Positions 24,206 through 60,165 of a stretch of 64,000 bases of DNA are shown in pieces (positions within the stretch are counted from its first letter, which is position 1; every line of letters begins with the position of its first letter). The stretch covers positions 62,001-126,000 of the forward strand of contig JAOACS010000014.1 in NCBI GenBank assembly GCA_026417655.1, written 5' to 3'. Position numbers and translations under genes: made by a program. The DNA comes from Syntrophobacterales bacterium. Its GTDB lineage: Bacteria; Desulfobacterota; Syntrophobacteria; Syntrophobacterales; Thermodesulforhabdaceae. Below the pieces are notes generated by a model, which made no database searches, was not told the origin of the DNA, and saw only the letters and a program-made list of their open reading frames with translations.

Positions 24206-25030
24206 ATGAATCCCTCTTTAGATTCTACTTTGAGTAATTTCTTGGAGTCACTCTTCTTAAAAATCTCCTTTAAAAAGGAAAATCTTTGGATCTCCCTGGT
24301 TAAGAAGGCTTCACCTTTGGTGTTTCACCTGGGGATCGCTATAACAGTTATTAATTTATTTCTTTTTCTGTCGCTTGCGATACGGTTGAAGAGTCTTGAT
24401 ACCATGTTTGTCTTGGCAATTTTGGTAGCCCTATATCCGGTATTTTTCTTTAGTTGGAGAAATATTCTAGATTTGCTAGAAAAGGAACTTAGCTATCAAA
24501 AGGATTTTACGCTCCCGGATCCATTACGAAAATCCATAGGTGCAATCCTTTTAGGCCTTTCCTTCGCTACTTTATTTGGTGGACTTTTGTGGGGTATTTC
24601 CTCAGGAAACGTAATTGTAGTAGTCTCAGGTGTGCTTGGGGCATTCCTTTTTTATCAGTGGTTTTCCGCCATGTTTTATCCTTCCACAATAGGAATTTCT
24701 TTTAGGGATGCTTCTTTCGATGAGACTCCTTTAGTTTTCCTCGATTGGTTAATTTTAAAACTCTTGGTGTTTTATCTATTTATAGTTGAGCTATCTGTGA
24801 TAGGAATGGCCGTCACACCCTTTGTAATTATCGTGGATCTTATTCGTGCATGGAGTGTTAAATCTCCGAGGGTAATTTATGAAATGGCTCTAATCCATCA
24901 GGGAATATGGGTTGGATCCCTTATGTTTCCTGTAATAGGTTATTTTATGTTTCAAGGGTGGGTTTTTGTATGGAATCTTCCAAAGAGGATATGGATTAAA
25001 TCGAAGGAGGACATCAATGAAAAATCATAG
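24206..25030 (+). CDS. Uncharacterised multi-span membrane protein
   Basis: A 274-residue protein with roughly six hydrophobic segments (near residues 38-62, 66-84, 108-130, 134-152, 185-208 and 232-255) and no recognised family. Short charged segments separate the helices, and there is no signal peptide or catalytic motif. AAGGAG stands before the ATG. Its last 14 nt overlap the start of the TPR lipoprotein gene, which ties it to the following run of exported proteins; it may be their inner-membrane component. Function unknown. Confidence 0.7.
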   Translation: MNPSLDSTLSNFLESLFLKISFKKENLWISLVKKASPLVFHLGIAITVINLFLFLSLAIRLKSLDTMFVLAILVALYPVFFFSWRNILDLLEKELSYQKDFTLPDPLRKSIGAILLGLSFATLFGGLLWGISSGNVIVVVSGVLGAFLFYQWFSAMFYPSTIGISFRDASFDETPLVFLDWLILKLLVFYLFIVELSVIGMAVTPFVIIVDLIRAWSVKSPRVIYEMALIHQGIWVGSLMFPVIGYFMFQGWVFVWNLPKRIWIKSKEDINEKS

Positions 25031-25682
25031 AATGATAAGGTTTTTGTTAGTTTGTGTTGTGTTATCTGGACTTATGGCCTGTGTTCCGCCACCTCCACCC
25101 CCTACTCCTCCTACACCTACCGCGGAAGATCATTTTAGAAGTGGTCTATCCTACTTTAAAGACGGCTATTTCGACAGTGCGATTTCCTCCTTTCAAGCGG
25201 CCATTGGACTGAGACCTAATTACACTGAGGCTTACTACTATCTTGGACAGTCCTACGAGAAAAAGAATATGGTTGATAAAGCTGAGGCAGCCTATCGGGA
25301 TGCTATTAGAACGAATCCACGCTATCTAGAAGCTCATGAGGCTCTAGGACTTCTTCTTTTCCGGCTTAACCGATTCCCCGAGGCGAAGCCAGAACTTGAG
25401 ATGGCGGTGAATTTGGGTTCCGTCTCTCCTGAGGTCTATACAAAGCTTGGTGAAATTTACCTTGCTGAGCGACAGTGTCAAAGAGCTATAGACATGTTTA
25501 AAAAGGCTCTTTCACTTAATTCCAATTTTTATCCAGCTCAGGACGGCCTGAAACGGGCTCAGGCTATTTGTAAGGTGCCTGGCAGTGGATATAAACCACC
25601 TACGGATGGTGACAAGAGAGGAACAAAGAAGCTAAGAACTTTCCAAGGGGGAGGAAAGGCTATTAGCCCAGAGGAGTTCTAA
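25017..25682 (+). CDS. TPR-repeat lipoprotein
   Basis: A 221-residue lipoprotein. Residues 1-21 form a signal peptide ending in the lipobox LMAC, with lipidation at Cys22, followed by a proline-rich linker (PPPPPPTPPTP). From about residue 38 there are four tetratricopeptide repeats, for example AISSFQAAIGLRPNYTEAYY, AEAAYRDAIRTNPRYLEAHE and AIDMFKKALSLNSNFYPA. TPR domains are protein-binding scaffolds. The ATG at 25017 has AAGGAGG five bases upstream. It lies at the start of the exported-protein run and could assemble the other members at the membrane. Confidence 0.85.
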   Translation: MKNHRMIRFLLVCVVLSGLMACVPPPPPPTPPTPTAEDHFRSGLSYFKDGYFDSAISSFQAAIGLRPNYTEAYYYLGQSYEKKNMVDKAEAAYRDAIRTNPRYLEAHEALGLLLFRLNRFPEAKPELEMAVNLGSVSPEVYTKLGEIYLAERQCQRAIDMFKKALSLNSNFYPAQDGLKRAQAICKVPGSGYKPPTDGDKRGTKKLRTFQGGGKAISPEEF

Positions 25683-25718
25683 TTAACTCCCTTGGGGTTC
25701 TAAAAGGAAGGAGAAAGA

Positions 25719-26348
25719 GTGACAGTCAAAGGGAGAAAAGTTCTAGTCCTAAGTATCGTAGCCTTATTTTTGGTTTTAGGTTCTGGGTCTCTTCTTGCTG
25801 ACCAAAAGGAGCTAATGGATGAGTGGGCTAGACACAAAAGGCAGATCACTGAAAAGATCGTAACCAAACTTCGACAGGAGGGTAAGCTTCCCCAGTATGG
25901 GACAATTGAATTTACGGCTCGAGTTAAACCTCTTCCCTCTGGTGAATTAGAAGTTACTGTCGATAGCCTTAAGGTTTATCCCAAAGAAGGAGTAAAATCT
26001 TCTGGCCCAACAGTAGTAAGGACTACTCAAGACGAAGAGGTAGCTCGTAAGTTCCAGGAGATATTTCGACCTAGAAATCCCTCTCCTTATTGGACTACGG
26101 GAACTATTGATATTATTGGAGGTGCTACAACTTCAGCAAATATTCGTATGGAAAAACCCCTAGATAAAACATTTACTGGCAGTCCGGAAGAAAGCCCTAA
26201 TAGTAGCGATGCTGGATCAAAGGAGAAACTTGTAGCCCTTTCGGAAGAATCTAGCAAGAAGGAGTCACAGGACGAAAGGGGAACCACGGGATGGTGGAGT
26301 AAGTTTTTAAATTGGTTGTTAGGCAAATCTTATGAAGGAGGTAAGTAA
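25719..26348 (+). CDS. Secreted protein of unknown function
   Basis: A 209-residue protein starting with GTG at 25719 and a good AAGGAGG-type ribosome-binding site. A signal peptide is evident (KVLVLSIVALFLVLGSGSLLA, residues about 7-27). The mature part begins DQKELMDEWARHKRQI, and a beta-rich middle has a TonB-C/energy-transducer-like look (GTIEFTARVKPLPSGELEVT), but no family is firmly recognised. The C-terminus is serine- and charge-rich, with a final WWSKFLNWLLGKSYEGGK. The stop overlaps the next ATG by one base (TAATG). Periplasmic location is inferred; role unknown. Confidence 0.7.
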   Translation: MTVKGRKVLVLSIVALFLVLGSGSLLADQKELMDEWARHKRQITEKIVTKLRQEGKLPQYGTIEFTARVKPLPSGELEVTVDSLKVYPKEGVKSSGPTVVRTTQDEEVARKFQEIFRPRNPSPYWTTGTIDIIGGATTSANIRMEKPLDKTFTGSPEESPNSSDAGSKEKLVALSEESSKKESQDERGTTGWWSKFLNWLLGKSYEGGK

Positions 26349-27247
26349 TGAGAAGTAGACCCCTTTTAACTCTAGCGATAATTTTAATAGCAAGTGTTTT
26401 AATTAGCATAGATCTTTGGGCCGGGGGTAATCGCCAGCTCATGTCTGAAAAGATGGCAGAACAAGATCTTAAGCGTAACATCGTTGAGATGGTAATTGGA
26501 TATAAGGTTCATAGCGAGGGACAGTTTGGTCTTACCGAAGAGGCCGCCTATAGAATCCAACAAAAGGCAGGAGCCCTTATTAAGGGTATCCACGTAGAAA
26601 AGATGATCTATGATAAGGATAAGGATATCGCCTTTTGCACGGGATACATTGACCTTGGCGATGTAATAAATGTTGCCGGAGAAAGAATGTCCTTCAAAAA
26701 TGTCAGAGTTCACGCCTATGGCTTCGGAACAATGACTCCCGAATCTAAACCACCTCTTATGGCGCTGCGCGCTGCCCTTGTTAATGCCTATGATGAAATG
26801 GCTGCTAAGATCGTTGGAGAAAGAATTATGAGCGCCAGTGAGGTAGAGAATTTCATTCTTACTAAGGATATTAACCGATCGAGAGTTCTTGCTGCTGTCT
26901 ATGGATCTTATATTCCCAACGTTGACATTGACAGTCCTAACCGTGGATGGGGTTGGGATGAGTCGGGAAATGCCTTCGTGAGACTTCAGCTTGATGTAAG
27001 AAAGGTTCGAGATATTCTTGGCCAAAGAATCAGATATGAAGGACCCAATATAGTTGAGGTCATAGGCCGCGGGGCTCAGACCGATGAGCTCCGAAAAGCA
27101 TCTGAAGGTGCTCCGGGTGGGACAAAAGTAGAGCGAACCGAATACCGTTCCCTCCCTGTTCCCACCGGAGCCGATAGAGAATTAAAGGGTGCTCCAGCTC
27201 CCCCAGTTGTTCCTACAAGTCCGGTTCCAGAGAAAAAAGAACAATAA
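26348..27247 (+). CDS. LPP20-like secreted protein
   Basis: A 299-residue exported protein with an N-terminal signal (about residues 1-25, LLTLAIILIASVLISIDLWA). The region from about residue 118 (YGFGTMTPES, then MALRAALVNAYDEMAAKIVG and the later NAFVRLQLDVRKVRD) follows the LPP20 pattern of alanine-rich helix plus closing strands seen in FlgP and related envelope proteins. The last 60 residues are proline-rich and low-complexity. No lipobox is present. A hairpin at 27263-27290 separates it from the FlgT-like gene. Family call is by pattern and not certain. Confidence 0.55.
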   Translation: MRSRPLLTLAIILIASVLISIDLWAGGNRQLMSEKMAEQDLKRNIVEMVIGYKVHSEGQFGLTEEAAYRIQQKAGALIKGIHVEKMIYDKDKDIAFCTGYIDLGDVINVAGERMSFKNVRVHAYGFGTMTPESKPPLMALRAALVNAYDEMAAKIVGERIMSASEVENFILTKDINRSRVLAAVYGSYIPNVDIDSPNRGWGWDESGNAFVRLQLDVRKVRDILGQRIRYEGPNIVEVIGRGAQTDELRKASEGAPGGTKVERTEYRSLPVPTGADRELKGAPAPPVVPTSPVPEKKEQ

Positions 27248-27262
27248 ATTTTCAACTATATA

Positions 27263-27290
27263 CTCCCCGCCTAACTCTGGAGGCGGGGGG
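27263..27290 (+). terminator. GC-rich hairpin between exported-protein genes
   Basis: CCCCGCCT (27265-27272) pairs with AGGCGGGG (27281-27288) and extends by one G-T and one C-G pair to a 10-bp stem with an 8-base loop. The sequence after it is TTAGAAATTTT, only partly T-rich. It may reduce rather than stop read-through into the FlgT-like gene 26 nt later. Confidence 0.5.
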
Positions 27291-27315
27291 TTAGAAATTT
27301 TAGTGGAGTGAAAAC

Positions 27316-28677
27316 ATGGCTGTTGATCTCCTGGGAAGAGTCTTTGTAACAATATCTTTTCTAGCTTCCATTTTTGTACATTCAGTTGAGGCAAAGGGTG
27401 AACTTTCTATTAAACCTGCCACTATAATTGTATCGGCCGAGGGGTTGTCCGATCCTAACTTCTATAAAGATAAAACCCTTGCTTACGATGAGGCCCTACG
27501 TGATGCCAAAAGACAGGCCATAGAAAAAGCTGTTGGATGTTATGTCTCTTCCCAGACTATTGTTGAGAATTATACCCTGGTTCGTGATCAGGTCATATCT
27601 AAGAGCGAAGGGGTGATTTCTAAAATTATTAATGTAGTAAACGGTGGTATTCAAGAGGATGGCTTTTACCATGTATGGATCAAAGCAGAGGTCTTTACCG
27701 CTCCGATAAGGCAAGTAGTATCATCCCTTTCCAAGCTTGAAAGAATGTCCCTTATAAGGGAAAAGGGTAATCCGACCTTTTCTGTGGGGCTTTTTATAGT
27801 ATCTCCTGACTCATACGGGGATAGGATCCCCTGTGAGGTATGTAATAGGGAGATCGCAAACAGATTAAAAAATTTTGGTTACAAGGTTATTTCGGAAGAG
27901 GAGGCCTCTAAGGAACTCCAAGAACGAGTGAAATTGCTTGTGGCTCAAGGACTCACTAGAGAAGCGGCCACCCAGATCGCAAAAAAGCCTAGTGATATCT
28001 CTATAAATGGTCTGATTAAGCTTCGCCGTTCTCAAAGGGTAAAGCTATCGAGTGGGATTGAAGTTCAGACTACACTTCTTACGGCTTGGTCGATTGAAGC
28101 TGTTGATAACCATTCTTCTGAGGTCATATTCTCAGAAAATTTTAGACCTCAACAGGGAGTTATATATAACGATGAAGATGAGGCTATAATGGATGTGGGT
28201 AAAAGGGTGGGTGATATTTTTAGTCAGGATATTTTTAAAGATTATATCATGAGACCCACTCATGATATAATTCTCACTTTTTCAGGTATTCCCGACAGGG
28301 AACTCGCCAAGATGATGAAAAAGGAGCTTTTGGGCATTCGCTCCGTTTTAAATGTTACTTTCCGTGAATTTCTTGCCAATGGAGATACTGTTTTTGAAGT
28401 AGAGTTTGCAGGTCCCCGGGATCAGCTTGCCGATATCTTGGATGGTGTTGTTCTTAAGGCTTTGAACAGTAAATATGGAGAAAGGACCTTCGTTATTCAG
28501 GAAGAAAGGGGTGATATTGTCAAGATCAAGGTTGACAAGCCAAGGGCTCTATCGAGGGAAAAACTTGAAGAAGGGGTTCCCACACAGCTTGTGAGTAATG
28601 TTAGTTCCGAAAGAGTTCGGGAGATCATAAAGAGTCCGGAGCTTTCGGAAAAGTACAAAAATGTTCTTGATCTCTAA
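27316..28677 (+). CDS. FlgT N-domain-like secreted protein
   Basis: A 453-residue protein with a signal peptide (about residues 1-26, ending VEAKGE). After it, YDEALRDAKRQAIEKAVGCY with the following SSQTIVENYTLVRDQVISKS matches the FlgT N-terminal/LPP20-type module: alanine-rich helix then a V-x-N-x-x-L-x-x-D-x-I strand. The middle part (about 150-300) resembles the second, CsgG-like part of such proteins (IANRLKNFGYKVIS). The C-terminus has no recognised domain. FlgT builds the flagellar H-ring in Vibrio, but the same fold occurs in non-flagellar envelope proteins. Family call moderate; role open. Confidence 0.6.
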   Translation: MAVDLLGRVFVTISFLASIFVHSVEAKGELSIKPATIIVSAEGLSDPNFYKDKTLAYDEALRDAKRQAIEKAVGCYVSSQTIVENYTLVRDQVISKSEGVISKIINVVNGGIQEDGFYHVWIKAEVFTAPIRQVVSSLSKLERMSLIREKGNPTFSVGLFIVSPDSYGDRIPCEVCNREIANRLKNFGYKVISEEEASKELQERVKLLVAQGLTREAATQIAKKPSDISINGLIKLRRSQRVKLSSGIEVQTTLLTAWSIEAVDNHSSEVIFSENFRPQQGVIYNDEDEAIMDVGKRVGDIFSQDIFKDYIMRPTHDIILTFSGIPDRELAKMMKKELLGIRSVLNVTFREFLANGDTVFEVEFAGPRDQLADILDGVVLKALNSKYGERTFVIQEERGDIVKIKVDKPRALSREKLEEGVPTQLVSNVSSERVREIIKSPELSEKYKNVLDL

Positions 28678-28693
28678 ATGTGGAGGGAGGCTT

Positions 28694-29155
28694 ATGTGGT
28701 TTAGAAAAGTTGTTTCCTCGGCTGTGGTGATAACTTTTACTATTGTGATGTTTGGATGTGCTACAACACCTCAGGGTCAACAGGAACAACAGGCGGCTCT
28801 TACAGGAGGTGCAATAGGGGCTGTTACAGGTGGTGTTATAGGGTATCTCGTTGGTGGAGAGAAGGGTGCTGCCATAGGGGCGTTAGCTGGGGCAGCCTTA
28901 GGAGCTCTTTCTGCTTGGGCTATAGAAAAGCGAAATCAGGCTATGCGCGAAGCAGCCCTTCGAAACAAGCCAATAGTCATTGTGAAGGAAGACAAAACCG
29001 AAAAGGTTATTGCGGAACCGGTTGAGGGTGGCAAGATTGAGGAAGAGGGCGGTAAAAAATACCGCAAAGTTAAGGTAAGAACCTATAAGGTAGATCCTAA
29101 GACTAAGAAAGAGGAGATTACGAGCGATACTATAGAAAGAGTGCCTCTTGAATAA
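28694..29155 (+). CDS. Glycine-zipper lipoprotein
   Basis: A 153-residue lipoprotein with signal peptide and lipobox MFGC (Cys22). Residues 38-75 form a glycine-zipper hairpin (GGAIGAVTGGVIGYLVGG then GAAIGALAGAALGALSAW) that could insert into or oligomerise in a membrane. The rest is hydrophilic and beta-rich (KYRKVKVRTYKVDPKTKKEE). ATG 28694 has GGAGGGAGG upstream; an in-frame start at 28661 lies inside the previous gene and would destroy the lipoprotein signal. Glycine-zipper lipoproteins (SlyB/OsmB type) are outer-membrane associated; exact partner unknown. Confidence 0.8.
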   Translation: MWFRKVVSSAVVITFTIVMFGCATTPQGQQEQQAALTGGAIGAVTGGVIGYLVGGEKGAAIGALAGAALGALSAWAIEKRNQAMREAALRNKPIVIVKEDKTEKVIAEPVEGGKIEEEGGKKYRKVKVRTYKVDPKTKKEEITSDTIERVPLE

Positions 29156-29213
29156 GACACTCTCAAGATGGCCAGATGATTGGTGTAAAAATAGGGTGCA
29201 GGTGCCTTAGGGT

Positions 29214-29939
29214 ATGAAAAAGTCTTATATAATGGTTTTTATTTGCCTATTGGGTATAACTACTGTAGGGAAGGTGTTAGCTCAATGTCCTAAAGAATTA
29301 GGTGGCAAAAAGGTTGCTGTCATTGTAGGTAGTAGCTCGGCCGATGTTACACCAGATCTCATTAAAGATATTGAGACAATCTTTGAAAATCAACTTTTGG
29401 GCGTTGGATTCCAGGTCATTAACCAGTCTCTAGTTGAAAAAATTATTCCTGAACAGGAGAAACAACTTTTACTTAGAGGAGACACCGTAGGAGCTGTAAA
29501 GCTTTCTGAAAAGCTTGGAGCCGATCTCCTTTTCGTAAGTCAACTGTCTGTTAGGACAAGCCCTATTGAGGGGGTGAAAACGAATTTAAAATCCGTATAT
29601 GTTACTTTGGGCTTAAAGCTTCTTTCTGCTAAGACCGCTCAAGCGATTTCATCAAAGACGTGGACAGGTAAGTCCGCAGGTAGTGAAATCTCGAAAACAA
29701 CGCTAGGACTTGTTGAAAAAAACTCCGAGGTATTAACCCGTGCTATATATGAAGAATATTGTCAAAGGGGAGCGGTTGCCCTTTCAGTTGGATCTAGTAG
29801 CCCTTCGACGTCATCCCGACTCTCTGGTGAAAAAGAAGGGAGTGTTCCTTCAGCTGAAGGCCCTGGTGAGGTTCCTACTAGAGAGGGACCTAAGAATGAA
29901 ATAACTCCTAAGCCGTCCACAAACCTTGAGAATCTATAA
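29214..29939 (+). CDS. CsgG/FlgO-like secreted protein
   Basis: A 241-residue exported protein with a signal peptide (about residues 1-23, ending VLAQ). The body has the pattern of CsgG/FlgO-type modules: KKVAVIVGSSSADVTPDL, FENQLLGVGFQVINQSLVEK, AVKLSEKLGADLLFVSQLSV and a strand KSVYVTLGLKLLSAKTAQAI followed by an S-x-x-W segment. This fold is also known from LpoB and TolB N-domains. The C-terminus is a low-complexity serine/proline tail. Its place between the glycine-zipper lipoprotein and the WD40-caspase gene suggests a shared envelope complex. Family call is by fold pattern. Confidence 0.55.
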   Translation: MKKSYIMVFICLLGITTVGKVLAQCPKELGGKKVAVIVGSSSADVTPDLIKDIETIFENQLLGVGFQVINQSLVEKIIPEQEKQLLLRGDTVGAVKLSEKLGADLLFVSQLSVRTSPIEGVKTNLKSVYVTLGLKLLSAKTAQAISSKTWTGKSAGSEISKTTLGLVEKNSEVLTRAIYEEYCQRGAVALSVGSSSPSTSSRLSGEKEGSVPSAEGPGEVPTREGPKNEITPKPSTNLENL

Positions 29940-29960
29940 AATTTTGGGGGGTTATAAGGT

Positions 29961-32894
29961 ATGAGAAGTAAGAGGTGGATATGGCTCATAATTCTTACAT
30001 GCCTTGTTTCCACTTCCCTATCTTTAGCTAATCAACCCTCTTCTGAGCCAATCTTGAAGATCCACTCTCCAACGCATACTGCGAGCATTCGTAAGGTAAA
30101 AAGCGACCTCCTCGGGACATATTTAGTGACGGCCTCCTATGATCAGACAGTAAAGGTATGGGATGCCTCTACAGGTGATGTCCTATCTACCCTGCATCCC
30201 CCCATAGGGGATGGTAATGAAGGTAAGATATATGCGGCCGCTCTGTCTTCTGATGGGAAGCATGTTGCCTGTGGAGGATTTACTGGAAAACAGTGGGATG
30301 GAAAGTTTGCAGTCTATATCTTCGATTGGCATTCGGGAAGTATGATTCGTCGTCTTGGAGGTCTTCCTGAGGCTATATTGGATATCGCCTATTCTCCCAA
30401 TGGTAAATATCTTGTGGTAGCTCTTGCAAAAAAGCAGGGCATTAGGGTTTATAATGCCGAAAACTATGGTGTTGTTTTTGAGGACTTTCATTATGGTGGA
30501 TCGGCTTACGGTGTGGATTTTGACAAAAAGGGACGTCTTACCGTTGTATCCGACGATGGTTTTATTCGCCTCTATGATAGTAATCTTTCCCTTGTTGCAA
30601 AGCAAAAGACCTCTGGGAAAGCACCTTTTTCTGTAGCCTTTAATCAGGATGGTTCTCTCATTGCTGTTGGTTATATGGACATTGCTAAGGTGGATATTTT
30701 CTCAGGAGAGAACTTAAAATTATTATTTTCTCCATCAACCCAGGGTATTTCTAGTGGAAATCTTAGTAGTGTAGCCTGGTTAAGTAATGGAAATCTTTGT
30801 GCGGCAGGAAGATGGAGCCTCTCTAATGGGATCAATCCTATTAGATGCTGGGAAAATGGTGGCAAAGGTCCCTATAGGGATATTTCTACTGGCAGTCGAG
30901 ACACTATCCTTGGTCTTAAGGCTCTTCCCGGTAACCAGTTGGTATTCATTTCAGGTGATCCTTCCGTTGGTAAGATAGGTAAAGACGGCTCGGTGGTTTT
31001 TATGCATTCTCCAACAAACGCCGATTTTAGAGACAAACAGGATGATTTTCTGATAAATGCCGATGGTTCTCAGGTGGTATTTGGATTTTTTTGGTCAGAT
31101 ACCAACGCTAAGGGCTTGTTTTCTATAAGTGAACGCTTTCTCGAAGTTAATCCTAAGAAGATGGATGGCTTTAAACCCCCCATTACCAAGGGGCTTCCTG
31201 TCACCAATTGGAAAGGTAGTGACAAACCCCTTTTCAGAGATAAGCCAATACCCCTAGATCCCTACGAAAGGAGTTACTGTTTAGCAATAAGCCCTGATCT
31301 TCAGGGGTTTGTAATAGGGTCGGAGTGGTCTTTACGGTTATTCGATTCTAATGGTGTTCAGAAATGGAAGGTAACGGCTCCTTCGCCTGTTAGAGCAGTA
31401 AATATTACCTCCGATAGACGTATTGTGGTAGCTGCCTATGCTGATGGAACGATACGATGGCATCGTCTAAGGGACGGTACACTAGTTATGAGCCTTTTCT
31501 TTATTCCCAAAACAGGACAATGGGTTTTGTGGGCTCCTTCGGGCTACTATGATGCATCAGCTGGAGCAGAAGACTATATTGGATGGCACATTAACCGTGG
31601 GACTGACAAGGAGGCGGATTTTTTCCCCATCTCTAGATTTAGATCCGTTTACTATCGCCCTGATCTTCCCACGGCTCTAATTAAAACTCTTGATGAGAAA
31701 GAGGCTCTTCGGTTTGCTGAAAAGGAATGGGGAAGAAGTGCAAGAGATGTCAAGCCTACAGAGGTCCTTCCACCTGTCGTCCGGATCCTAAGTCCTCCTA
31801 AGAATTATGAAACCGATTCTAAGGAACTTAAAATGAAGATCTCTCTTCGCTCGCCTTCTAATGCCCCAGTAAGATCAGTTAAGGTGTTAATAGATGGAAG
31901 ACCGGTCAGAGTGGAGGAGGGTGAATGGGCTGCCGGAGAGGAGGTAACCCGTGAAATTACGATACCACTAGAGCCGAGAGAACAATCTATTTCTGTGATC
32001 GCCATAAATAAATATGGAGCTAGTGAGCCTTCAATTATAAGGGTTTCTTACGGCACGAAGGTGGGCAAGGCCGACGCTTTTCCTGAAGAAAAACCAACCG
32101 CCATTCTCCTTATGCCAAAACTTTACATTTTGGCTGTTGGGGTCGGTAAATATCCAAATGAGGAAATGAAACTTCTTTTCCCTGCTAAGGATGCTCAGGA
32201 CTTTGTAAAAACTATGGAAAGTCAGAAGGGAAAACTTTACCGCGATGTGGTAGCAAAAATATTGATTGATGAAAAGGCGACTCGTGAAAATATAGTTGAT
32301 GGACTTGAATGGATCCGGAAGGAGACTACAGCCCGAGATGTAGCCATGATATTTCTTGCCGGTCACGGGTTTACAGACAATCGTAACCAGGTTTATTATT
32401 ATATGCCTATTGATGCTAATCCTGACAAACTTATGGGAACCGCTGTTTCGGCTAAAACATTACAAGAGACAATTTCATCAATCCCTGGCAAAGTCATCCT
32501 TTTCCTGGATACCTGTTATGCTGCCAATGTTCTTGGTGGTAAGGCTGCAAGGGGACTCGCGGTAGGAGCGACGAACGATGTTATAGGTGTTGCTAATGAG
32601 TTGAGTAGTTCGGAAAATGGAGCTGTAGTATTTGCTTCATCTTTCAAGACTCAGAAATCCTTTGAATCGCCCGATTGGGGCAATGGAGCCTTTACCAAAG
32701 CCCTCATAGAAGGTATTTCTGGGAAAGCGGATCTTATGGGAAAGGGTAAGGTGACGATAAAAACTCTTGAGATATATATATCCGATAGAGTAAAGGATTT
32801 GACGAAGGGAGATCAAACACCGGTGATTCAAGCTCCAGAAAAAACAGATAAGGGTATAGTGGATTTTCCCATTGCTGTTGTAGAAAAAATCTAA
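29961..32894 (+). CDS. Exported WD40-repeat caspase-family protease
   Basis: A 977-residue protein: signal peptide (about 1-23, SLSLANQ); WD40 propeller (about 30-520, with the textbook blade YLVTASYDQTVKVWDASTGD); a bridging GYYDASAGAEDYIGWHINRG segment typical of bacterial WD40-caspases; an Ig-like domain (about 600-690, VRSVKVLIDGRPV); and a C14 caspase domain (about 715-970). The catalytic dyad is intact: His802 in FLAGHGFTDNR and Cys852 in FLDTCYAANVLGG. It should be a periplasmic or surface peptidase. It lies in a run of lipoproteins and CsgG/LPP20-like proteins, whose assembly it may sense or cut. Confidence 0.93.
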   Translation: MRSKRWIWLIILTCLVSTSLSLANQPSSEPILKIHSPTHTASIRKVKSDLLGTYLVTASYDQTVKVWDASTGDVLSTLHPPIGDGNEGKIYAAALSSDGKHVACGGFTGKQWDGKFAVYIFDWHSGSMIRRLGGLPEAILDIAYSPNGKYLVVALAKKQGIRVYNAENYGVVFEDFHYGGSAYGVDFDKKGRLTVVSDDGFIRLYDSNLSLVAKQKTSGKAPFSVAFNQDGSLIAVGYMDIAKVDIFSGENLKLLFSPSTQGISSGNLSSVAWLSNGNLCAAGRWSLSNGINPIRCWENGGKGPYRDISTGSRDTILGLKALPGNQLVFISGDPSVGKIGKDGSVVFMHSPTNADFRDKQDDFLINADGSQVVFGFFWSDTNAKGLFSISERFLEVNPKKMDGFKPPITKGLPVTNWKGSDKPLFRDKPIPLDPYERSYCLAISPDLQGFVIGSEWSLRLFDSNGVQKWKVTAPSPVRAVNITSDRRIVVAAYADGTIRWHRLRDGTLVMSLFFIPKTGQWVLWAPSGYYDASAGAEDYIGWHINRGTDKEADFFPISRFRSVYYRPDLPTALIKTLDEKEALRFAEKEWGRSARDVKPTEVLPPVVRILSPPKNYETDSKELKMKISLRSPSNAPVRSVKVLIDGRPVRVEEGEWAAGEEVTREITIPLEPREQSISVIAINKYGASEPSIIRVSYGTKVGKADAFPEEKPTAILLMPKLYILAVGVGKYPNEEMKLLFPAKDAQDFVKTMESQKGKLYRDVVAKILIDEKATRENIVDGLEWIRKETTARDVAMIFLAGHGFTDNRNQVYYYMPIDANPDKLMGTAVSAKTLQETISSIPGKVILFLDTCYAANVLGGKAARGLAVGATNDVIGVANELSSSENGAVVFASSFKTQKSFESPDWGNGAFTKALIEGISGKADLMGKGKVTIKTLEIYISDRVKDLTKGDQTPVIQAPEKTDKGIVDFPIAVVEKI

Positions 32895-32932
32895 GTGGTG
32901 CCATCTTAATTCTTTGGGTGGGGGAAGGTATA

Positions 32933-34354
32933 ATGAAAAGATCTTTGTTGATAGTTTTTATCATCTTTTTTTCGTTTTTTGTATTGTTAGTCCAAAAAGC
33001 TAAAGCAGATTGTGAAGAGGCAAAAAAAATATTTGTCCAAAGTCTTAACGAAGGGGACGTAGATAGAAGGATTCAGCTTTTGGTAAAAGCGGTTACTGAC
33101 TGTCCCGATTTTGCTGAAGCCTATAATAATCTTGGACTGGCCTTTGAAGAAAAGAACCTTTTTAATGAAGCACTTGACGCTTACCGTAAGGCCTCAGAAA
33201 TAAAACCGAATTTCCCTCATCCTTTCGCCGGCATGGGCGATATTTATAGGAAACAGGAAAAATATGGTGAAGCGATCAAAATGTATCGTCGATTTCTCGA
33301 TCTTTCGGCGTCTAAAGAAGTTCGCCAGAGGTATCCTGATGTGGCTAACTACGTTTCTATAATAGAAAAAAACCTTAAAGCCTGTGAGGCCAAATTGAAT
33401 CCTCAGGAGAAACAAAAGGTGGAATCTGAGGAGCTTGAGGATTCTGATCAAATTGTGACGGCTAAGGCCATTACAGAAGCTCTTACCAAAAAAACGAGAG
33501 GTATAAGTGCAGGCTCTAGCATTCCTATAAAAATCCATTTTGCCACAAACAGTGCAGCTATTTCTCCCAAGTCTCATAGACAACTAGAAGAAATTGCCCG
33601 TGCCTTGAATGAACCAGTCCTGGCTTCATCAAAAATTCTCATTGAAGGACATACGGATAATGTAGGAAGTGATGCGTATAATTTGGAACTTTCTTCGAAA
33701 CGGGCAGAGAGCGTGAAAAGCTATCTCGTGGAAAAGTTCGGAATCGAAGCTAATCGTTTGGAGACCCGAGGTGTTGGTTCCTCGAGACCTGTGGCATCTA
33801 ATGATACCTCCTGGGGGAGAGCGCAGAATAGGAGAGTAGAGCTTGTAAACTTAGGTTCTATAAGTCAGGAAATTTCAAGGGAGGCTTCTAGGGGACAGGT
33901 GGCCCTAACCACAAATGAAAAGACTGTTGAACCTCCGAAGGAATCGATAAAGCTTGCTATTCTTGAGCTAGACTTTCTTGATCGCTCAGGACGTCAGGAT
34001 CCTATGGGTAGAATGATTTCCGAATTTCTTACCACGGCTTCCGTTGACAGTGGAAGGTTCAGTATCGTTGAGAGGAGTCTCCTGGAGAAGGTCATGAAGG
34101 AGCTAGAACTCGGTCAAAGCGGTATTGTTGAAGAAGGGAAGGCTAGAGAAATAGGGAAGATGGTAGGGGCTGGAGCTATCCTTACCGGTTCAGTAAGCCG
34201 CCTTGGAAACACTATGAGAATAGACATTAGACTCATAGACGTGGAGTCTGGTAAAATTATGGCGGCAGCAAATGAAATTACCGAAGGGGATCTCCAATCC
34301 TTATCTCGGGCTTGTAATATCTTGGTTCAGCGGATTATTGCTAAACTAAAATGA
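32933..34354 (+). CDS. TPR - OmpA-like - CsgG/FlgO-like fusion protein
   Basis: A 473-residue exported protein starting at ATG 32933 (GGGGGAAGG upstream) with a signal peptide ending about residue 24. Next come two to three TPR repeats (PDFAEAYNNLGLAFEEKNLF, about 35-145), then an OmpA-like peptidoglycan-binding domain (about 190-305: ILIEGHTDNVGSDAYNLELS, SKRAESVKSYL, RAQNRRVEL). A C-terminal CsgG/FlgO-type domain follows (about 330-470: KLAILELDFLDRSG, FSIVERSLLEKVMKEL, GAGAILTGSVSRLG, MRIDIRLIDVESGKI). It would tie the envelope complex to peptidoglycan. It is the last member of the run; its stop overlaps the ParB-like gene by 4 nt. Confidence 0.88.
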   Translation: MKRSLLIVFIIFFSFFVLLVQKAKADCEEAKKIFVQSLNEGDVDRRIQLLVKAVTDCPDFAEAYNNLGLAFEEKNLFNEALDAYRKASEIKPNFPHPFAGMGDIYRKQEKYGEAIKMYRRFLDLSASKEVRQRYPDVANYVSIIEKNLKACEAKLNPQEKQKVESEELEDSDQIVTAKAITEALTKKTRGISAGSSIPIKIHFATNSAAISPKSHRQLEEIARALNEPVLASSKILIEGHTDNVGSDAYNLELSSKRAESVKSYLVEKFGIEANRLETRGVGSSRPVASNDTSWGRAQNRRVELVNLGSISQEISREASRGQVALTTNEKTVEPPKESIKLAILELDFLDRSGRQDPMGRMISEFLTTASVDSGRFSIVERSLLEKVMKELELGQSGIVEEGKAREIGKMVGAGAILTGSVSRLGNTMRIDIRLIDVESGKIMAAANEITEGDLQSLSRACNILVQRIIAKLK

Positions 34355-35328
34355 TAGGCTGGGACAATGTGTTTTTTAAGTATCTCCTGCTGGAATCCAT
34401 TGAATCGGACGAGGATTTTAGACTAACTTCTACATATAATCCCCGCCTTTATTCTATCCTCAATATTTCTGGTATATTATCTCCTTTGTGGGTTTGGGAG
34501 ACTAGCAGTAATAGGCTGGTGCTCATAGATGGTTATAGTAGATATGGCTGGGCGAAGGGGACAGGTTGTTACACTTTACCCTGCCTTGTATTTCCTTCCT
34601 CCTTTTCCAAAGAAGAGCTTCTTAAAATGAGAATCCTTACGAAGTCCTCGGAATCTAATCTAAGCCTTGAGGAGAAAGCAAATATTGTTGAAAGACTTTT
34701 GAGGCTATACTCGGCCCGAGAAGTAGAGCGTAATTTCTTACCGCTTTTTAGTTTTCCATCAAAGCCAGGATTTTCTAAAGTAATTGTGGCCTTCACAAAA
34801 ACCTCAAAGGAATTTCGCTGTGCAGTGAGGGAGGGGATTATAGACGAGAGGATAGCCCTTGTATTAGCTACGTGGGATGAGGAATCCCGTCATGGGATGT
34901 TGAGGCTCCTAAAAAAACTTCGATGTTCTGTTAGTATTCAGCGAGAAATTTTAGAATCGGTTGAGGATCTTGGACGAGCAAAGAATATTCCCTATAGTGA
35001 GGTTTTAAGAGAGATAGAAGTAGTCTTAGGAGATCAGAATCTATCTCCTCGAGAGGGGACAGAGCGGGTTCGGCATTTTCTAAAGGCCCTATTGTTTCCC
35101 AATCTTATGGCGAGGAGAAATTCATTCGAGAAAACTCTAAAGAGCCTCGAATTACCTTATGGAGTAGAGCTTAAACCACCTGACCAATTTGAAGGAGATG
35201 AGTGGGAAATGAAGGTTCGATTCTCAAAACCCCAGGAACTCCTTGATAAACTTAAGATCTTTAATTCGAAGATCTCTATGGAGGTGCTTGATAAGATTTT
35301 TTATGGCGACCGACATAGATCCCTTTGA
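34351..35328 (+). CDS. ParB-N-like protein of unknown function
   Basis: A 325-residue soluble protein. Residues 40-75 (LSPLWVWETSSNRLVLIDGY then SRYGWAKGTG and LPCLVFP) look like the ParB/Srx nucleotide-binding fold, in which the D-G-x-x-R motif contacts phosphate. The helical rest (EEKANIVERLLRLYS, REGIIDERIALVLATWDEES) resembles the central ParB region, without a recognisable KorB/ParB C-terminal dimer domain. It starts in the ATGA overlap with the previous gene and overlaps the SPL-like gene by 26 nt. It pairs with that gene, not with a chromosome-partition ParA. DNA binding and any CTPase activity are inferred. Confidence 0.6.
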   Translation: MIGWDNVFFKYLLLESIESDEDFRLTSTYNPRLYSILNISGILSPLWVWETSSNRLVLIDGYSRYGWAKGTGCYTLPCLVFPSSFSKEELLKMRILTKSSESNLSLEEKANIVERLLRLYSAREVERNFLPLFSFPSKPGFSKVIVAFTKTSKEFRCAVREGIIDERIALVLATWDEESRHGMLRLLKKLRCSVSIQREILESVEDLGRAKNIPYSEVLREIEVVLGDQNLSPREGTERVRHFLKALLFPNLMARRNSFEKTLKSLELPYGVELKPPDQFEGDEWEMKVRFSKPQELLDKLKIFNSKISMEVLDKIFYGDRHRSL

Positions 35329-36466
35329 TGATGTTTTTGTTGAAGAGTCCGTAAGGGAAAGTCCCATTGTAAGGGAGCTTAGAAAGAATCTTCCCGAAGC
35401 TAGATTCTACTGTTTATCCTCCGAGCCCTGTTATAGAAACTCCCTTTCGGAAGATTTTTCGAAAAAACTTTACGTGATTCGCTTCAAAGGGCGTTTCTTG
35501 AGATCATGTCCTGCTACCCGTTTTTACCATTGTTGTGGATATACGATCCTCCACTTTGGAGAGCACTGCACAGTAGGATGCACGTATTGTATTTTACAAG
35601 CCTATCTAAATCAGCCCTATATTAAAATTTTTGGTAACTTAGAGGAGATGCTTTCTGAGGTAAAAGGTGTCCTCTTACAATACCCTCAGGTGCTCTTTAG
35701 AGTAGGGACAGGAGAGTTTACCGACTCCCTTTTACTCGATCCCTGGGCTGGTTACTCCTCCCATTTTGTGCCCCTTTTTGCCACAATTCCTAATGCTGTT
35801 CTAGAACTCAAAACAAAGACAGCCTTTGTAGATCGCCTCAAGGATCTTCCCCATGGGGGCCATACTATTGTTAGCTGGTCTCTCAACGCCCCTTCTATTA
35901 TGACTCAGGAGGAGGCAAATGCTGCTCCCTTTGAACTTCGTCTAGAATGCGCCAGAAGATGTCTTGAATGGGGTTATTTTCTCAGTTTTCATTTCGACCC
36001 TATCTTTTTTTTTCCGGGCTGGGAGAAGGAGTATGCCCTAGTGGTAAGAGAGCTTTTTGAAACTATCCCGCCGAGAAAGATTGTGTATATAAGCCTTGGA
36101 GCTTTCCGGTTTATGCCTGAACTAAAGGGGAGAATTCTCGAAAAGAATCCTACCTGGAAGTTTGCAAGTGGTGAATTCGTTCCATGTCCCGACGGAAAAA
36201 GACGGTATTTTGTCGATATTAGGGTGGGACTTTATAAATTCTTACTTGAGGCAATTCGATCTTACGCTCCTGATATTTGTGTTTATTTATGCATGGAGAG
36301 TGGCTCTGTGTGGAAGCGGGTTTTTGGATACAGTCCCGACGAGGTAGGAGGTCTTCCTAGGATACTCGATGATGCGGTAAGAAAAACGATGAAGGTTGGG
36401 ATGAACTGTCTTAACTCCGCTGCGTCACTATTTTTAAGAAAACCTCAGCCCTATTCCTCTATATGA
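35303..36466 (+). CDS. Spore-photoproduct-lyase-like radical SAM protein
   Basis: A 387-residue radical SAM protein with the cluster motif Cys89-x3-Cys93-x2-Cys96 in GEHCTVGCTYC, at almost the same position as in Bacillus SPL (90/94/97). Overall layout follows the SPL family (FYHCCGYTILHFGEHC, HFDPIFFFPGWEKEY). At the position where SPL carries its hydrogen-atom-donor cysteine 141, this protein reads FRVGTGEFTDSLLLD, with no cysteine in that stretch. DNA photoproduct repair is therefore not assured. The ATG at 35303 lies inside the ParB-like gene (26-nt overlap), implying coupled expression. Function unknown. Confidence 0.75.
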   Translation: MATDIDPFDDVFVEESVRESPIVRELRKNLPEARFYCLSSEPCYRNSLSEDFSKKLYVIRFKGRFLRSCPATRFYHCCGYTILHFGEHCTVGCTYCILQAYLNQPYIKIFGNLEEMLSEVKGVLLQYPQVLFRVGTGEFTDSLLLDPWAGYSSHFVPLFATIPNAVLELKTKTAFVDRLKDLPHGGHTIVSWSLNAPSIMTQEEANAAPFELRLECARRCLEWGYFLSFHFDPIFFFPGWEKEYALVVRELFETIPPRKIVYISLGAFRFMPELKGRILEKNPTWKFASGEFVPCPDGKRRYFVDIRVGLYKFLLEAIRSYAPDICVYLCMESGSVWKRVFGYSPDEVGGLPRILDDAVRKTMKVGMNCLNSAASLFLRKPQPYSSI

Positions 36467-52845: not shown

Positions 52846-53553
52846 CTAAGCATCCCAATGTTTTCTAGTCTTTTCCTTTTCTTTGTTTGCAAAAATGTGT
52901 TTGACGTTTCTACCCTCCACAACAAATATCACATTTTCAGCTATATTTGTAGCAATGTCTGCAGATCTTTCAAGACATCTTGCTACAATTATTGTTTGAA
53001 GTGCCTGTTCTACACAACTAGGATGGTCTGTCATGTATTGTAGGGAATATCTCATAACAGCAAAATTTGCTTCATCGGCTTCATCATCCATAGCGCAAAC
53101 TTTATTTGCTAACTCCACATCTTCATTCGAAAAGGCCCGGAGCGAATCTTCAACCATGGCTATAGCAACCTTATAAAGATCCTCAAAAGTTGGGGGTTGA
53201 CAAATTGTTGGGAGTTTGGAAAGCCTAATAGTTCGCTGAGCTATATTTACCGCTTGATCACCGATTCGTTCAATTTCTATGTTCATTCTCAAGCAGGCGA
53301 CAATAAGCCTAAGATCCTTGGCAACCGGCTGTTCCAGGGCTAATAGGTTTAGTGCCCTCCGGTCTATATCAATTTCCCACCGATCTAATATGGCATCCCT
53401 TTCAACGATCTTTCTGGCTTCCTCGGAAGAATAACTCAGGAAGGCCATAACTGAACTCTTGAGGGCCTCCAAAGCAAAAATGCCCATTTTCAAGGTTTCA
53501 TTTTTTAGCTCCTCAAGTTCCCTTACATATCTAGATCTTACACTCTCGGTCAT
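52846..53553 (-). CDS. phoU: Phosphate signalling regulator PhoU
   Basis: A 235-residue all-helical protein of the PhoU family with two three-helix repeats. Conserved segments are LKMGIFALEALKSSVMAFLS, the acidic metal-binding ERDAILDRWEIDIDRRALNL, LRMNIEIERIGDQAVNIAQR and CLERSADIATNIAENVIFVV. PhoU links the Pst transporter to the PhoR kinase and damps Pho activation when phosphate is plentiful. The stop of phoR overlaps its start by 4 nt. Confidence 0.95.
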   Translation of the reverse strand: MTESVRSRYVRELEELKNETLKMGIFALEALKSSVMAFLSYSSEEARKIVERDAILDRWEIDIDRRALNLLALEQPVAKDLRLIVACLRMNIEIERIGDQAVNIAQRTIRLSKLPTICQPPTFEDLYKVAIAMVEDSLRAFSNEDVELANKVCAMDDEADEANFAVMRYSLQYMTDHPSCVEQALQTIIVARCLERSADIATNIAENVIFVVEGRNVKHIFANKEKEKTRKHWDA

Positions 53554-55376
53554 ACAAGGCTGTCCTTTCTTGCCTGTTTAGGTAGGGTAAAACAAAAACG
53601 AGCTCCCCTTTCTCCTTCTACCCATATCCTTCCACCATGGTTTTTCACTATATGTTTACAAATGGCAAGTCCTAATCCTATGTGGAATGAATTTTTTTCT
53701 TTCTTAGGGCCTCTCTCAATTTGATAGAATCTCTCAAAGATTCTTTCTCTGTGGACTTTGTCTATTCCCGGTCCTCGATCTTCAAGACATATCAAAATAT
53801 CATTTTCATTCTGAAGGTTTATTAAAAGCTTGAGAGGAATCCCATCGGGTTGATATCTCAGGGCATTCTCGTAGAGGTTTTGAAAAACTGTCAAAAGTTG
53901 CTCCCTATGACCTTTTATTGAAACGGAGTGACCATCCACAATCGTTTCCAGTTCAATATGTTTTTTTGACGCGATAGGTTTACATACCTCCCAGGCCTCT
54001 TCTGCAATTTCAAGAATATCAATTTCCTCAAAGTCTTTAGTAGACATGGTGTAGGATTCAACCTCAGCAAGTTTGAGGAGCTTATCTACTAATCTCATCA
54101 TGTATTCAGTGTTTCTAAGGATAACTTCCAGAAATGTCTTTGATTGCTCTAATCTGTTATCTCTGGGGATGAGATCTAGGAGCGTTTCGGTGTAACCTTT
54201 AATTGATGTAAGAGGTGTTCTCAAAGCGTGAGAGACGTTGGCAATGAAATCTTTTCTTATCTTTTCTATGCGAACCATATCCGATACGTCGTGAAATACC
54301 GCTACAGCTCCTTTTAATTCTCCTCTTTTTTCGAGTCTAACGAGATTTACATCATAGACCCTATTTCCGTCACCCAAAGATAACTTAAGGCTTATGTAAT
54401 TAGCTCTACCCTGAATTATTTCTTTGCATGCGCTTTGGAGTTCCACCGAGGGGATCAGCTCTATTGGATATCGCCCCTCCCAGGTTGTGGCTTCACCTAT
54501 AATGTGTTTCACCATGAAGGGATTGGCCATACGAATTTTACCCTGTTTATCCAGAAGTAGAATGCCTTCCTTCATCTCCTTTAGAATAGTGCTAAATTTT
54601 TCGGTAGTTTCGGTTATTTGGTTAAGTTGAGTTTCTATTGAATCGGCCATTGTATTTATAGCGTTAAGGAGCTCAGGGAATTCATATTTTGGTGAAGCTA
54701 CAAGCCTTTTTTTGATATCACCACCGGCAACGTCTTTAGCAAAATTGATTATTTCCTCAAGTGAACCATATAACCTTCTGGCAAGTAAGTAGGCAACAGA
54801 ACATATTAGAGCGAATACGCCAATGAAGGATATTCCAAAGCGGGGAAGCAGGTAATAGAATGTTTCTTCAAGAGGTTGCGTTGGGGTTGCGGCTCTCATT
54901 ACTCCCTGGTAAGTTCTATCGCCAATTGTGACGTCACAGGTCTTTGCAACGTATATTAGGTCTCTTCGAAGTGTTTCACTAAACCGTGTTGATCTACCTG
55001 TGCCAACTTTTAGGGCCTGTTGAATCTCCTCTCTATTTATGTGGTTTTCCATGGATGTAATTTTTTCTAAGGGTACCTCGGAGTCTCCTAAGACCTTTCC
55101 CGTTGTATCGACATAGGTAAAGCGAAGACGGAAAATTAGACCATTAGATCTCAACCATTCATAAAAGGACTGGAAATCTTCAAAGGACTGGCGCTGTTTC
55201 ATCAAGGAGATGGCAATATCTAATTTTTCATCGGCACTTCTAAAATTTTCATCTATCAAAACCTTATTTACAGTCACCTTGTAAAAGTACCCGGAAAATA
55301 AGAAGGCAAGGGTTAACACAAACCAGAAGTAAGCGAGTAACTTGGCCTGAAAGGGAGAATATTTTCTTATGATCAC
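53550..55376 (-). CDS. phoR: PhoR-type phosphate sensor histidine kinase
   Basis: A 608-residue membrane kinase: first membrane helix (about 12-32), a periplasmic or extracytoplasmic region (33-175), second helix (about 175-197), HAMP (200-255), PAS (260-370), HisKA and ATPase domain ending in FHIGLGLAICKHIVKNHGGR. The phospho-acceptor is His383 in FIANVSHALRTPL, where the residue after His is Ala384 instead of the usual Glu or Asp. Its phoR identity rests on the phoB and phoU neighbours. It overlaps both by 4 nt. Confidence 0.92.
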   Translation of the reverse strand: MIIRKYSPFQAKLLAYFWFVLTLAFLFSGYFYKVTVNKVLIDENFRSADEKLDIAISLMKQRQSFEDFQSFYEWLRSNGLIFRLRFTYVDTTGKVLGDSEVPLEKITSMENHINREEIQQALKVGTGRSTRFSETLRRDLIYVAKTCDVTIGDRTYQGVMRAATPTQPLEETFYYLLPRFGISFIGVFALICSVAYLLARRLYGSLEEIINFAKDVAGGDIKKRLVASPKYEFPELLNAINTMADSIETQLNQITETTEKFSTILKEMKEGILLLDKQGKIRMANPFMVKHIIGEATTWEGRYPIELIPSVELQSACKEIIQGRANYISLKLSLGDGNRVYDVNLVRLEKRGELKGAVAVFHDVSDMVRIEKIRKDFIANVSHALRTPLTSIKGYTETLLDLIPRDNRLEQSKTFLEVILRNTEYMMRLVDKLLKLAEVESYTMSTKDFEEIDILEIAEEAWEVCKPIASKKHIELETIVDGHSVSIKGHREQLLTVFQNLYENALRYQPDGIPLKLLINLQNENDILICLEDRGPGIDKVHRERIFERFYQIERGPKKEKNSFHIGLGLAICKHIVKNHGGRIWVEGERGARFCFTLPKQARKDSLV

Positions 55377-56071
55377 TTGTTACTCCGGGTATTAGTTTCA
55401 AATTTATATCCAAACCCTCTTACGGTTTGAATCCAATCGCCGTAGGCTCCAAGTTTTTTTCTGAGTCTTCTTATATGGGTGTCTACAGTTCGAGCGTAAC
55501 CTTCGAAATTGTAACCCCATACGCGGTCCAGTAGAATCTCTCTTGTAAGAACTCTACCTTCGTTACGAACAAACGCAAGAAGAAGGTTAAATTCGGTAGC
55601 CGTAAGAGGCACAGCCACTCCGTCTATCGCAAGACTGTGGGCTTCAATGTTGAAAACCATCCCTTCGCGCTGCCATAAATTTTGGTCTTCAGACAAAGAT
55701 TGTTTTCGCCTAAGAATAGCTTTGATCCTAAGTATAAGTTCCCTCGGGCTAAAGGGTTTTACAACATAGTCGTCCGCCCCTAATTCAAAGCCGAGCACTC
55801 GATCTATCTCTTCACCCTTTGCCGTGAGCATTATTACGGGAATGTGGGTAGTCTCGTCATGTCTTTTAAGTCTCTTACAGACTTCAAAACCATCCATATC
55901 TGGCAGCATAATATCAAGTATTATTAAATCTGGACGTTCATTCCAAGCAATTTCAAACCCCTCTTGACCACTTTGAGCTCGCCTTACAATAAATTGATGG
56001 GCTTCTAATTGGTAGGAAATCAGATTCAAAATATCCTCATCATCCTCTATTACTAGAATCTTTTCTTTCAT
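55373..56071 (-). CDS. phoB: PhoB-type response regulator
   Basis: A 232-residue OmpR/PhoB-family regulator. Receiver domain: ILVIEDDEDILNLISYQLEA, the phosphorylated Asp in PDLIILDIMLPDMDG, and the Lys in DDYVVKPFSPREL. The winged helix is at about 130-225: LTATEFNLLLAFVRNEGRVL, with the recognition-helix segment ARTVDTHIRRLRKKLG. It would bind the Pho boxes in the region 56103-56204, controlling itself and pst. The gene is divergent from pstC. Confidence 0.95.
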   Translation of the reverse strand: MKEKILVIEDDEDILNLISYQLEAHQFIVRRAQSGQEGFEIAWNERPDLIILDIMLPDMDGFEVCKRLKRHDETTHIPVIMLTAKGEEIDRVLGFELGADDYVVKPFSPRELILRIKAILRRKQSLSEDQNLWQREGMVFNIEAHSLAIDGVAVPLTATEFNLLLAFVRNEGRVLTREILLDRVWGYNFEGYARTVDTHIRRLRKKLGAYGDWIQTVRGFGYKFETNTRSNK

Positions 56072-56102
56072 GCTCTCTCTCCACTACATTTTGATGTCGA
56101 CC

Positions 56103-56140
56103 AGATTACAACACTATTATAATGTTACGATATGTTTACA
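56103..56140 (-). promoter_or_regulatory. PhoB box and -10 of the phoBRU promoter
   Basis: On the minus strand TGTAAAC (56140-56134) and CGTAAC (56129-56124) are direct repeats 11 bases apart, the spacing of a PhoB box. Ten bases after the two 11-base units comes TAATCT (56108-56103), a possible -10. This suggests autoactivation of phoB under phosphate limitation. Confidence 0.65.
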
Positions 56141-56166
56141 GGCGAGCGTCAATTTTATCTCCATAA

Positions 56167-56204
56167 TGTAACATGAATGTAACTTTTCCGAAATGTTTCG
56201 ATAA
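56167..56204 (+). promoter_or_regulatory. PhoB box and -10 of the pst promoter
   Basis: TGTAAC (56167-56172) and TGTAAC (56178-56183) are perfect direct repeats at 11-base spacing, a strong PhoB box. The possible -10 CGATAA (56199-56204) begins ten bases after the second 11-base unit. The pstC gene follows, with the likely start at TTG 56268. Confidence 0.75.
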
Positions 56205-56267
56205 CAATCTAAACCCATTTTTAGATTGTCCTTTTTAAGATCGGTTATAAGCGAGAGGGAGACTAAA

Positions 56268-58926: not shown

Positions 58927-59030
58927 GCCCACAGAAGGGGGGTGAAATAAGGATCTAGAGAGCTTTAAGAAAAATTTAAAGTATTGTGGGAACCTAATGA
59001 TAATGAAAAGTATGATTGGGGGGAGCTACT

Positions 59031-60083: not shown

Positions 60084-60106
60084 TAATTTCGTCGATTAGT
60101 TAAGAA

Positions 60107-60140
60107 ACCATAATTCGAGTCCTTCGACTCGAATTATGGT
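60107..60140 (+). other. 15-bp perfect hairpin between pstS and pstB
   Basis: ACCATAATTCGAGTC pairs perfectly with GACTCGAATTATGGT around the loop CTTC, 23 nt after the pstS stop. No T-run follows, so it is less likely a terminator than an mRNA stabiliser or processing site that keeps pstS message abundant relative to pstB, as often seen after binding-protein genes. Confidence 0.75.
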
Positions 60141-60165
60141 AGATGTTGGAGGTTATTAAAGGCTT

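Follow-up and report, generated by a model that had tools for sequence, protein, structure and literature searches.

The functions of bacterial caspase relatives are largely unknown, and thinking about them has dwelt mostly on cell death in the cytoplasm. What would such a protease do if it carried an export signal and a WD40 propeller, as the initial annotation proposed for one gene in the 64,000-nucleotide stretch of a Syntrophobacterales genome analysed here (the window; contig JAOACS010000014.1, positions 62,001 to 126,000)? The coordinates, strand, start and length given for that gene were all exact. Its features, numbered from the first letter of the window, are as follows.

29961..32894, + strand: exported WD40-caspase gene, 977 amino acids from the ATG
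29961..30032, + strand: signal sequence, residues 1–24, with a probable signal peptidase I site between SLA and NQ
31521–31595: junction motif W521-x2-W524...G541-W-H543-x-N545, residues 521–545
32190..32192, + strand: Asp744 codon, predicted S1 acidic residue, equivalent to TbMCA2 Asp95
32364..32366, + strand: His802 codon, catalytic His (AGHG)
32508..32516, + strand: Asp850-Thr851-Cys852 codons, S1 acid and catalytic Cys (DTCYA)
32550..32555, + strand: Arg864-Gly865 codons, candidate self-cleavage site in the loop after the catalytic Cys

Domain architecture of the WD40-caspase

The protein is made up of a Sec-type signal (residues 1–24), a long WD40 propeller region (approximately 31–545), an Ig-like domain (approximately 604–698), so labelled from a run of strands in the model rather than from a family match, and a C-terminal Peptidase_C14 domain (720–977). 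Pfam matches are strongest for WD40 at residues 37–68 (E 1e-21) and for Peptidase_C14 at residues 724–959 (E 3e-14; 53.6 bits against a curated cut-off of 21.4). By its sequence the protein is a member of peptidase family C14, a metacaspase/orthocaspase, and its gene is the sole Peptidase_C14 match of the genome (96% complete).

Structure prediction, proposed earlier as the check on the caspase domain, returned a caspase fold: in an AlphaFold2 model built from a 28-sequence alignment (mean pLDDT 87, pTM 0.79), which was used in place of a poor 4-sequence model (pLDDT 58), strands 721–727, 763–769, 794–806, 844–853 and 888–892 alternate with helices. The WD40 repeats form a propeller in this model, blade number aside. 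The propeller assignment of the initial annotation is borne out by the Pfam matches, by the model and by Foldseek, for which the matches listed from the PDB were propellers only, including the two-propeller structure 1nr0; propellers dominated this search, with no separate match of the caspase domain. The last propeller blade is followed by the junction motif (WxxW...GYYDAS...IGWHxN), which contains 5 of the 7 columns that are invariant across all 28 sequences, a conservation at least equal to that of the His-Cys dyad.

Active site and predicted specificity

In the model His802 lies within strand segment 794–806 and Cys852 at the end of segment 844–853, which upholds the proposal of an intact dyad, its residues 50 positions apart at strand ends of the caspase fold. 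The spacing had been likened to that of active caspases; the figure is confirmed, and it lies instead near that of metacaspases and paracaspases. Asp744, His802, Asp850 and Cys852 are invariant in all 25 complete caspase domains, which were drawn from Desulfobacterota, Nitrospirota, Pseudomonadota, Acidobacteriota and Bacteroidota.

A profile search of solved structures matched the domain to GSU0716, an uncharacterised protein of Geobacter sulfurreducens that gave the best match with the dyad aligned (PDB 3bij, E 8e-9), to Arabidopsis-type metacaspase 4 and to MALT1, as well as to yeast-type metacaspase 1 and TbMCA2. The GSU0716 chain differs in having 285 residues, against 977 here, and no propeller region. 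In most rows the profile's matches to Mcr-1 fell on a stretch lacking the catalytic Cys; these matches were put down to chance. In the alignments displayed, the GHG and DxC motifs fall on the known dyad, and Asp744 aligns with the NDA of yeast metacaspase-1 chain 4f6o.

Substrate binding in TbMCA2 involves Cys92, Asp95, Ser156 and Asp211 (PMC4357240), the serine being printed as Ser159 in PMC6426788, which gives the two aspartates as known S1 pocket residues. Alignment and these published residues make Asp850 the equivalent of Asp211; the Ser156 position is occupied by Ala800. The S1 pocket, matched by alignment to those of yeast metacaspase and TbMCA2, is thus acidic, with two aspartates. Because Asp744 and Asp850 lie in S1, and because C14 members other than caspases prefer Arg/Lys, that is, a basic P1 residue (PMC5756287), Arg/Lys specificity is predicted, and the protein is probably an active Arg/Lys-specific orthocaspase and not an Asp-specific caspase. 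The basic S1 pocket of an Asp-specific animal-type caspase is absent, the aligned positions being Asp; the Asp reporter peptides suggested for activity assays are not expected to be cut, since the S1 residues are acidic. Loss of the substrate pocket, named at the outset as grounds for rejecting the protease reading, was not seen at the level of residues, as both S1 aspartates are present and invariant in 25 of 25 domains.

Conserved pocket residues would also be expected of a pseudo-protease, in which the caspase domain binds envelope partners as a scaffold and cuts nothing: pseudo-orthocaspases are common in bacteria and retain the acidic pocket (PMC6426788), and the junction motif at residues 521–545 is conserved at least as well as the dyad. 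However, pseudo-forms change exactly the dyad residues, which here are invariant in every complete domain across phyla, and we regard a scaffold as decidedly improbable.

The model of the protease includes a disordered loop behind the catalytic Cys (residues 859–871, pLDDT below 50). An Arg-Gly pair occurs in this loop in 19 of 25 relatives, recurring in loops that otherwise differ, and is absent from it in the other 6; 2,000 within-loop shuffles averaged 5.5 and reached 13 at most, a null that ignores relatedness among relatives that are not independent. On the strength of this conservation, the disorder of the loop and the predicted specificity, self-cleavage after Arg864 is plausible, with Arg864-Gly865 as a candidate self-processing site for an Arg/Lys-type pocket.

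Export of the caspase family

The N-terminus reads MRSKR-WIWLIILTCLVSTSLSLA-NQ and is parsed as MRSKR / WIWLIILTCLVSTSL / SLA-NQ; read directly, it has a basic n-region, a hydrophobic core and an SLA site. The frame opens one codon upstream of the ATG, so the hydrophobic N-terminus is taken as the true one. A lipobox at Cys14 (ILTC) was judged unlikely, as it lies early in the signal and has Thr at −1. Relatives were scored for a basic n-region, then a hydrophobic core, then either a signal-peptidase site or a lipobox. By this measure, of the 27 relatives whose N-terminus could be read, 25 have a signal peptide or a lipoprotein signal, with cores of similar strength; the signal peptide claimed in the initial annotation is borne out at this level. 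Several relatives have a lipobox (LAAC in L032, LVGC in L037, MVAC in L035 and, by eye, NTSC in L029), and some of those without one end in an AxA-type site instead. L049 and L041 show no visible export signal, and stops lie upstream of both. Signal peptidase I and II routes reach the same side of the membrane; such a convergence would be surprising were export itself not under selection, and the comparison supports export as a family-wide trait of this caspase group.

Exported clan CD proteases with a caspase-like fold and Arg/Lys specificity include gingipain and clostripain, which, unlike the protein described here, belong to families C25 and C11 and have no WD40 region. Gingipain is treated among clan CD in PMC4357240. 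Among prokaryotic metacaspases, Asplund-Samuelsson et al. in 2012 reported 46 with a single N-terminal helix, a possible signal peptide, and noted that WD40 is the domain most often added; they also discussed extracellular action, suggested fratricidal use and mentioned operons with surface functions (PMC3501461). The present protein resembles these in its WD40 partner domain and N-terminal signal, and it resembles orthocaspases generally in its p20-type domain, His-Cys dyad and two pocket aspartates (PMC3501461, PMC5756287, PMC6426788). Signal-bearing and WD40-bearing metacaspases having been reported (PMC3501461), the novelty first attached to export was overstated. What sets this protein apart is that export is family-wide and that the gene lies in a conserved set of eight exported products.

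An eight-gene exported set

The caspase gene stands seventh in an uninterrupted run of eight genes (25017–34354), all with N-terminal export signals. The other seven are listed here.

25017..25682, + strand: up4, TPR lipoprotein, lipobox LMAC (listed reading frame from 24966, likely ATG 25017)
25719..26348, + strand: up3, small exported protein, no family
26348..27247, + strand: up2, exported FlgP/LPP20-like protein, on weak but concordant matches
27316..28677, + strand: up1, exported, with an N-terminal domain common to DUF4384 proteins flanking distant caspase orthologues
28694..29155, + strand: gz, glycine-zipper lipoprotein (listed frame from 28661, likely ATG 28694)
29214..29939, + strand: lpp, exported, no family; 21 bp separate its end from the caspase gene
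32933..34354, + strand: ompA, exported TPR-OmpA-CsgG/FlgO protein (listed frame from 32918, likely ATG 32933)

The N-terminal hydrophobic cores of the eight products have 12-residue means of 2.38–3.36. No such core is found in the next two genes downstream of ompA, and only 3 of 40 other non-polytopic reading frames in the window are equally hydrophobic at the N-terminus, one of them by a doubtful start. The proposal that the substrate or trigger lies outside the inner membrane is strengthened by this run of eight export signals, one on an OmpA-type protein; it stands on the exported protein, its intact site and its exported neighbours, and falls short in how new it made export appear, while the WD40 regulation put forward with it is conjectural.

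The OmpA domain is of the peptidoglycan-binding type, and the ompA protein is likely to be a peptidoglycan anchor; its matches to ZorB cover only the shared OmpA/MotB domain. No Pfam family was matched by lpp, up1, up2 or up3, and matches of lpp and up1 to GlmU, HflX and flavodoxin were discarded as chance. The N-terminal domain of up1 (residues 38–143) is related to that of DUF4384 proteins (hhalign probability 97%, E 1.7e-10). A DUF4384-type neighbour of the caspase occurs at about 9 loci outside the Thermodesulforhabdaceae, which puts this domain first among candidates for a general partner; none was seen at many other caspase loci, several of which end at a contig edge. At one of the nine or so loci that have it (L045:8059-14997), genes for FecR, DUF4384, WD40-caspase and CHASE2-guanylate cyclase proteins lie in a row, a possible signalling cluster.

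Five PDB matches to up2, each named as a lipoprotein or FlgP and thus all of FlgP/LPP20 type, together with the FlgO/CsgG domain of the ompA protein, recall the FlgO/FlgP/FlgT flagellar accessories, and a FlgD-like hook gene (62895) was recognised by eye about 28 kb away. The partners could accordingly form a motor-associated ring processed by the caspase. Yet every up2 match is weak (E 0.016–0.2), and the operon has no flagellar gene next to it. Domains of LPP20 and CsgG type occur outside flagella too, and we know of no caspase in the FlgO/FlgP/FlgT set. A flagellar accessory is very unlikely.

Relatives and distribution

Three genomes of the same family encode full-length orthologues of the caspase (70, 64 and 54% identity), and all eight genes are present in identical order in G001, G002 and G003. 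G004, also of this family, gave no match to the caspase, up1 or ompA proteins, the three tested. Two genomes of another family (G024 and G020) have six exported genes without the caspase, glycine-zipper or OmpA gene, namely homologues of lpp, up1, up4, up3 and up2 and one lipoprotein without a Pfam family. As this version lacks both the protease and the putative anchor, the two look as if they were either gained by an exported module or lost from it. A gene of FHA-GAF-cyclase-like appearance by eye lies divergently beside the caspase-less exported operon (L136:10052-11659, L137:9082-10686).

Scanning the named genomes with the single protein gave no matches; an alignment-based scan of the same genomes was needed, and it found about 28 loci closely matching the caspase, most at 31–47% identity and some truncated, in Desulfobacterota, Nitrospirota, Thiotrichaceae and other Pseudomonadota, Acidobacteriota and Bacteroidota. 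Two of these loci are those of G002 and G003 again. Many distant orthologues have no operon partners beside them, so the family as a whole does not depend on these partners. At one locus (L148:120-11701) four WD40-caspase genes lie in tandem, successive reading frames overlapping by 4 bp, and at another (L048) there is a two-gene tandem. In the phylum, 43 of 395 genomes match the caspase at E 1e-40 or better, a patchy distribution, and many of these matches cover only the second half (approximately 480–959 of the model), which suggests that the N-terminal parts of the family are exchangeable.

Patchiness would suit regulated killing, with the exported caspase as the trigger for lysis of its own cell, death of neighbours or defence against phage. 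The protein is matched by the PADLOC 'caspase' model (E 4e-10), and extracellular or fratricidal action has been suggested for such proteins (PMC3501461). The best NCBIfam model is that of the EACC1-associated caspases (NF047832, E 3e-20), at a score of 72.4 bits against the 140 bits for membership, and no EACC1 partner was recognised. The surroundings of the gene argue against killing: no NTPase sensor, nuclease or toxin gene was recognised beside it, the neighbours are metabolic genes and exported structural proteins, the gene order is stable in three relatives, a caspase-less version of the set exists, and the ZorB matches reflect a shared domain. On balance we consider killing unlikely.

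A proposed role in the cell envelope

We think it reasonably probable that the protein is an active orthocaspase that supplies the proteolytic activity of the eight-gene exported assembly in the cell envelope. The Sec machinery would take the precursor across the inner membrane, as its signal sequence predicts. The propeller region may then dock on the partner lipoproteins or sense a periplasmic or outer-membrane signal, while the TPR-OmpA-CsgG protein and the lipoproteins, judging from their domains, would attach the assembly to both peptidoglycan and outer membrane. As part of its activation the protease might cut itself after Arg864, in the flexible loop that follows the catalytic Cys, and the His802/Cys852 dyad would cut envelope proteins after Arg or Lys, as predicted from Asp744 and Asp850. 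Its likeliest role is cleavage on a signal, in quality control or remodelling of the envelope, ahead of the killing of its own cell or of neighbours.

A more specific version, which we hold tentatively and find somewhat doubtful, is that of an undescribed envelope machine: a self-cleaving Arg/Lys caspase that OmpA/CsgG/FlgP-like partners tether to peptidoglycan and the outer membrane, and that has joined an exported module found without a caspase in related bacteria. No description of the eight-gene envelope set was found in the literature searched, a coverage outside which most subscription papers fall; both the envelope operon and the version of it that lacks the caspase seem to be new, whereas exported bacterial caspases were already known. 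Family-wide export and partners of peptidoglycan and outer-membrane type would make envelope proteolysis a different use of the caspase fold, one that can be tested on a handful of partners and through the self-cleavage site and specificity predicted here.

Other genes in the window

Just downstream of the exported set lies a spore photoproduct lyase-like gene (35243–36466; Pfam SPL, E 8e-24), in a Gram-negative genome. Further along, positions 52846–61065 hold a probable phosphate uptake and sensing cluster, with PhoU/PhoR/PhoB-like and Pst-like genes recognised by eye.
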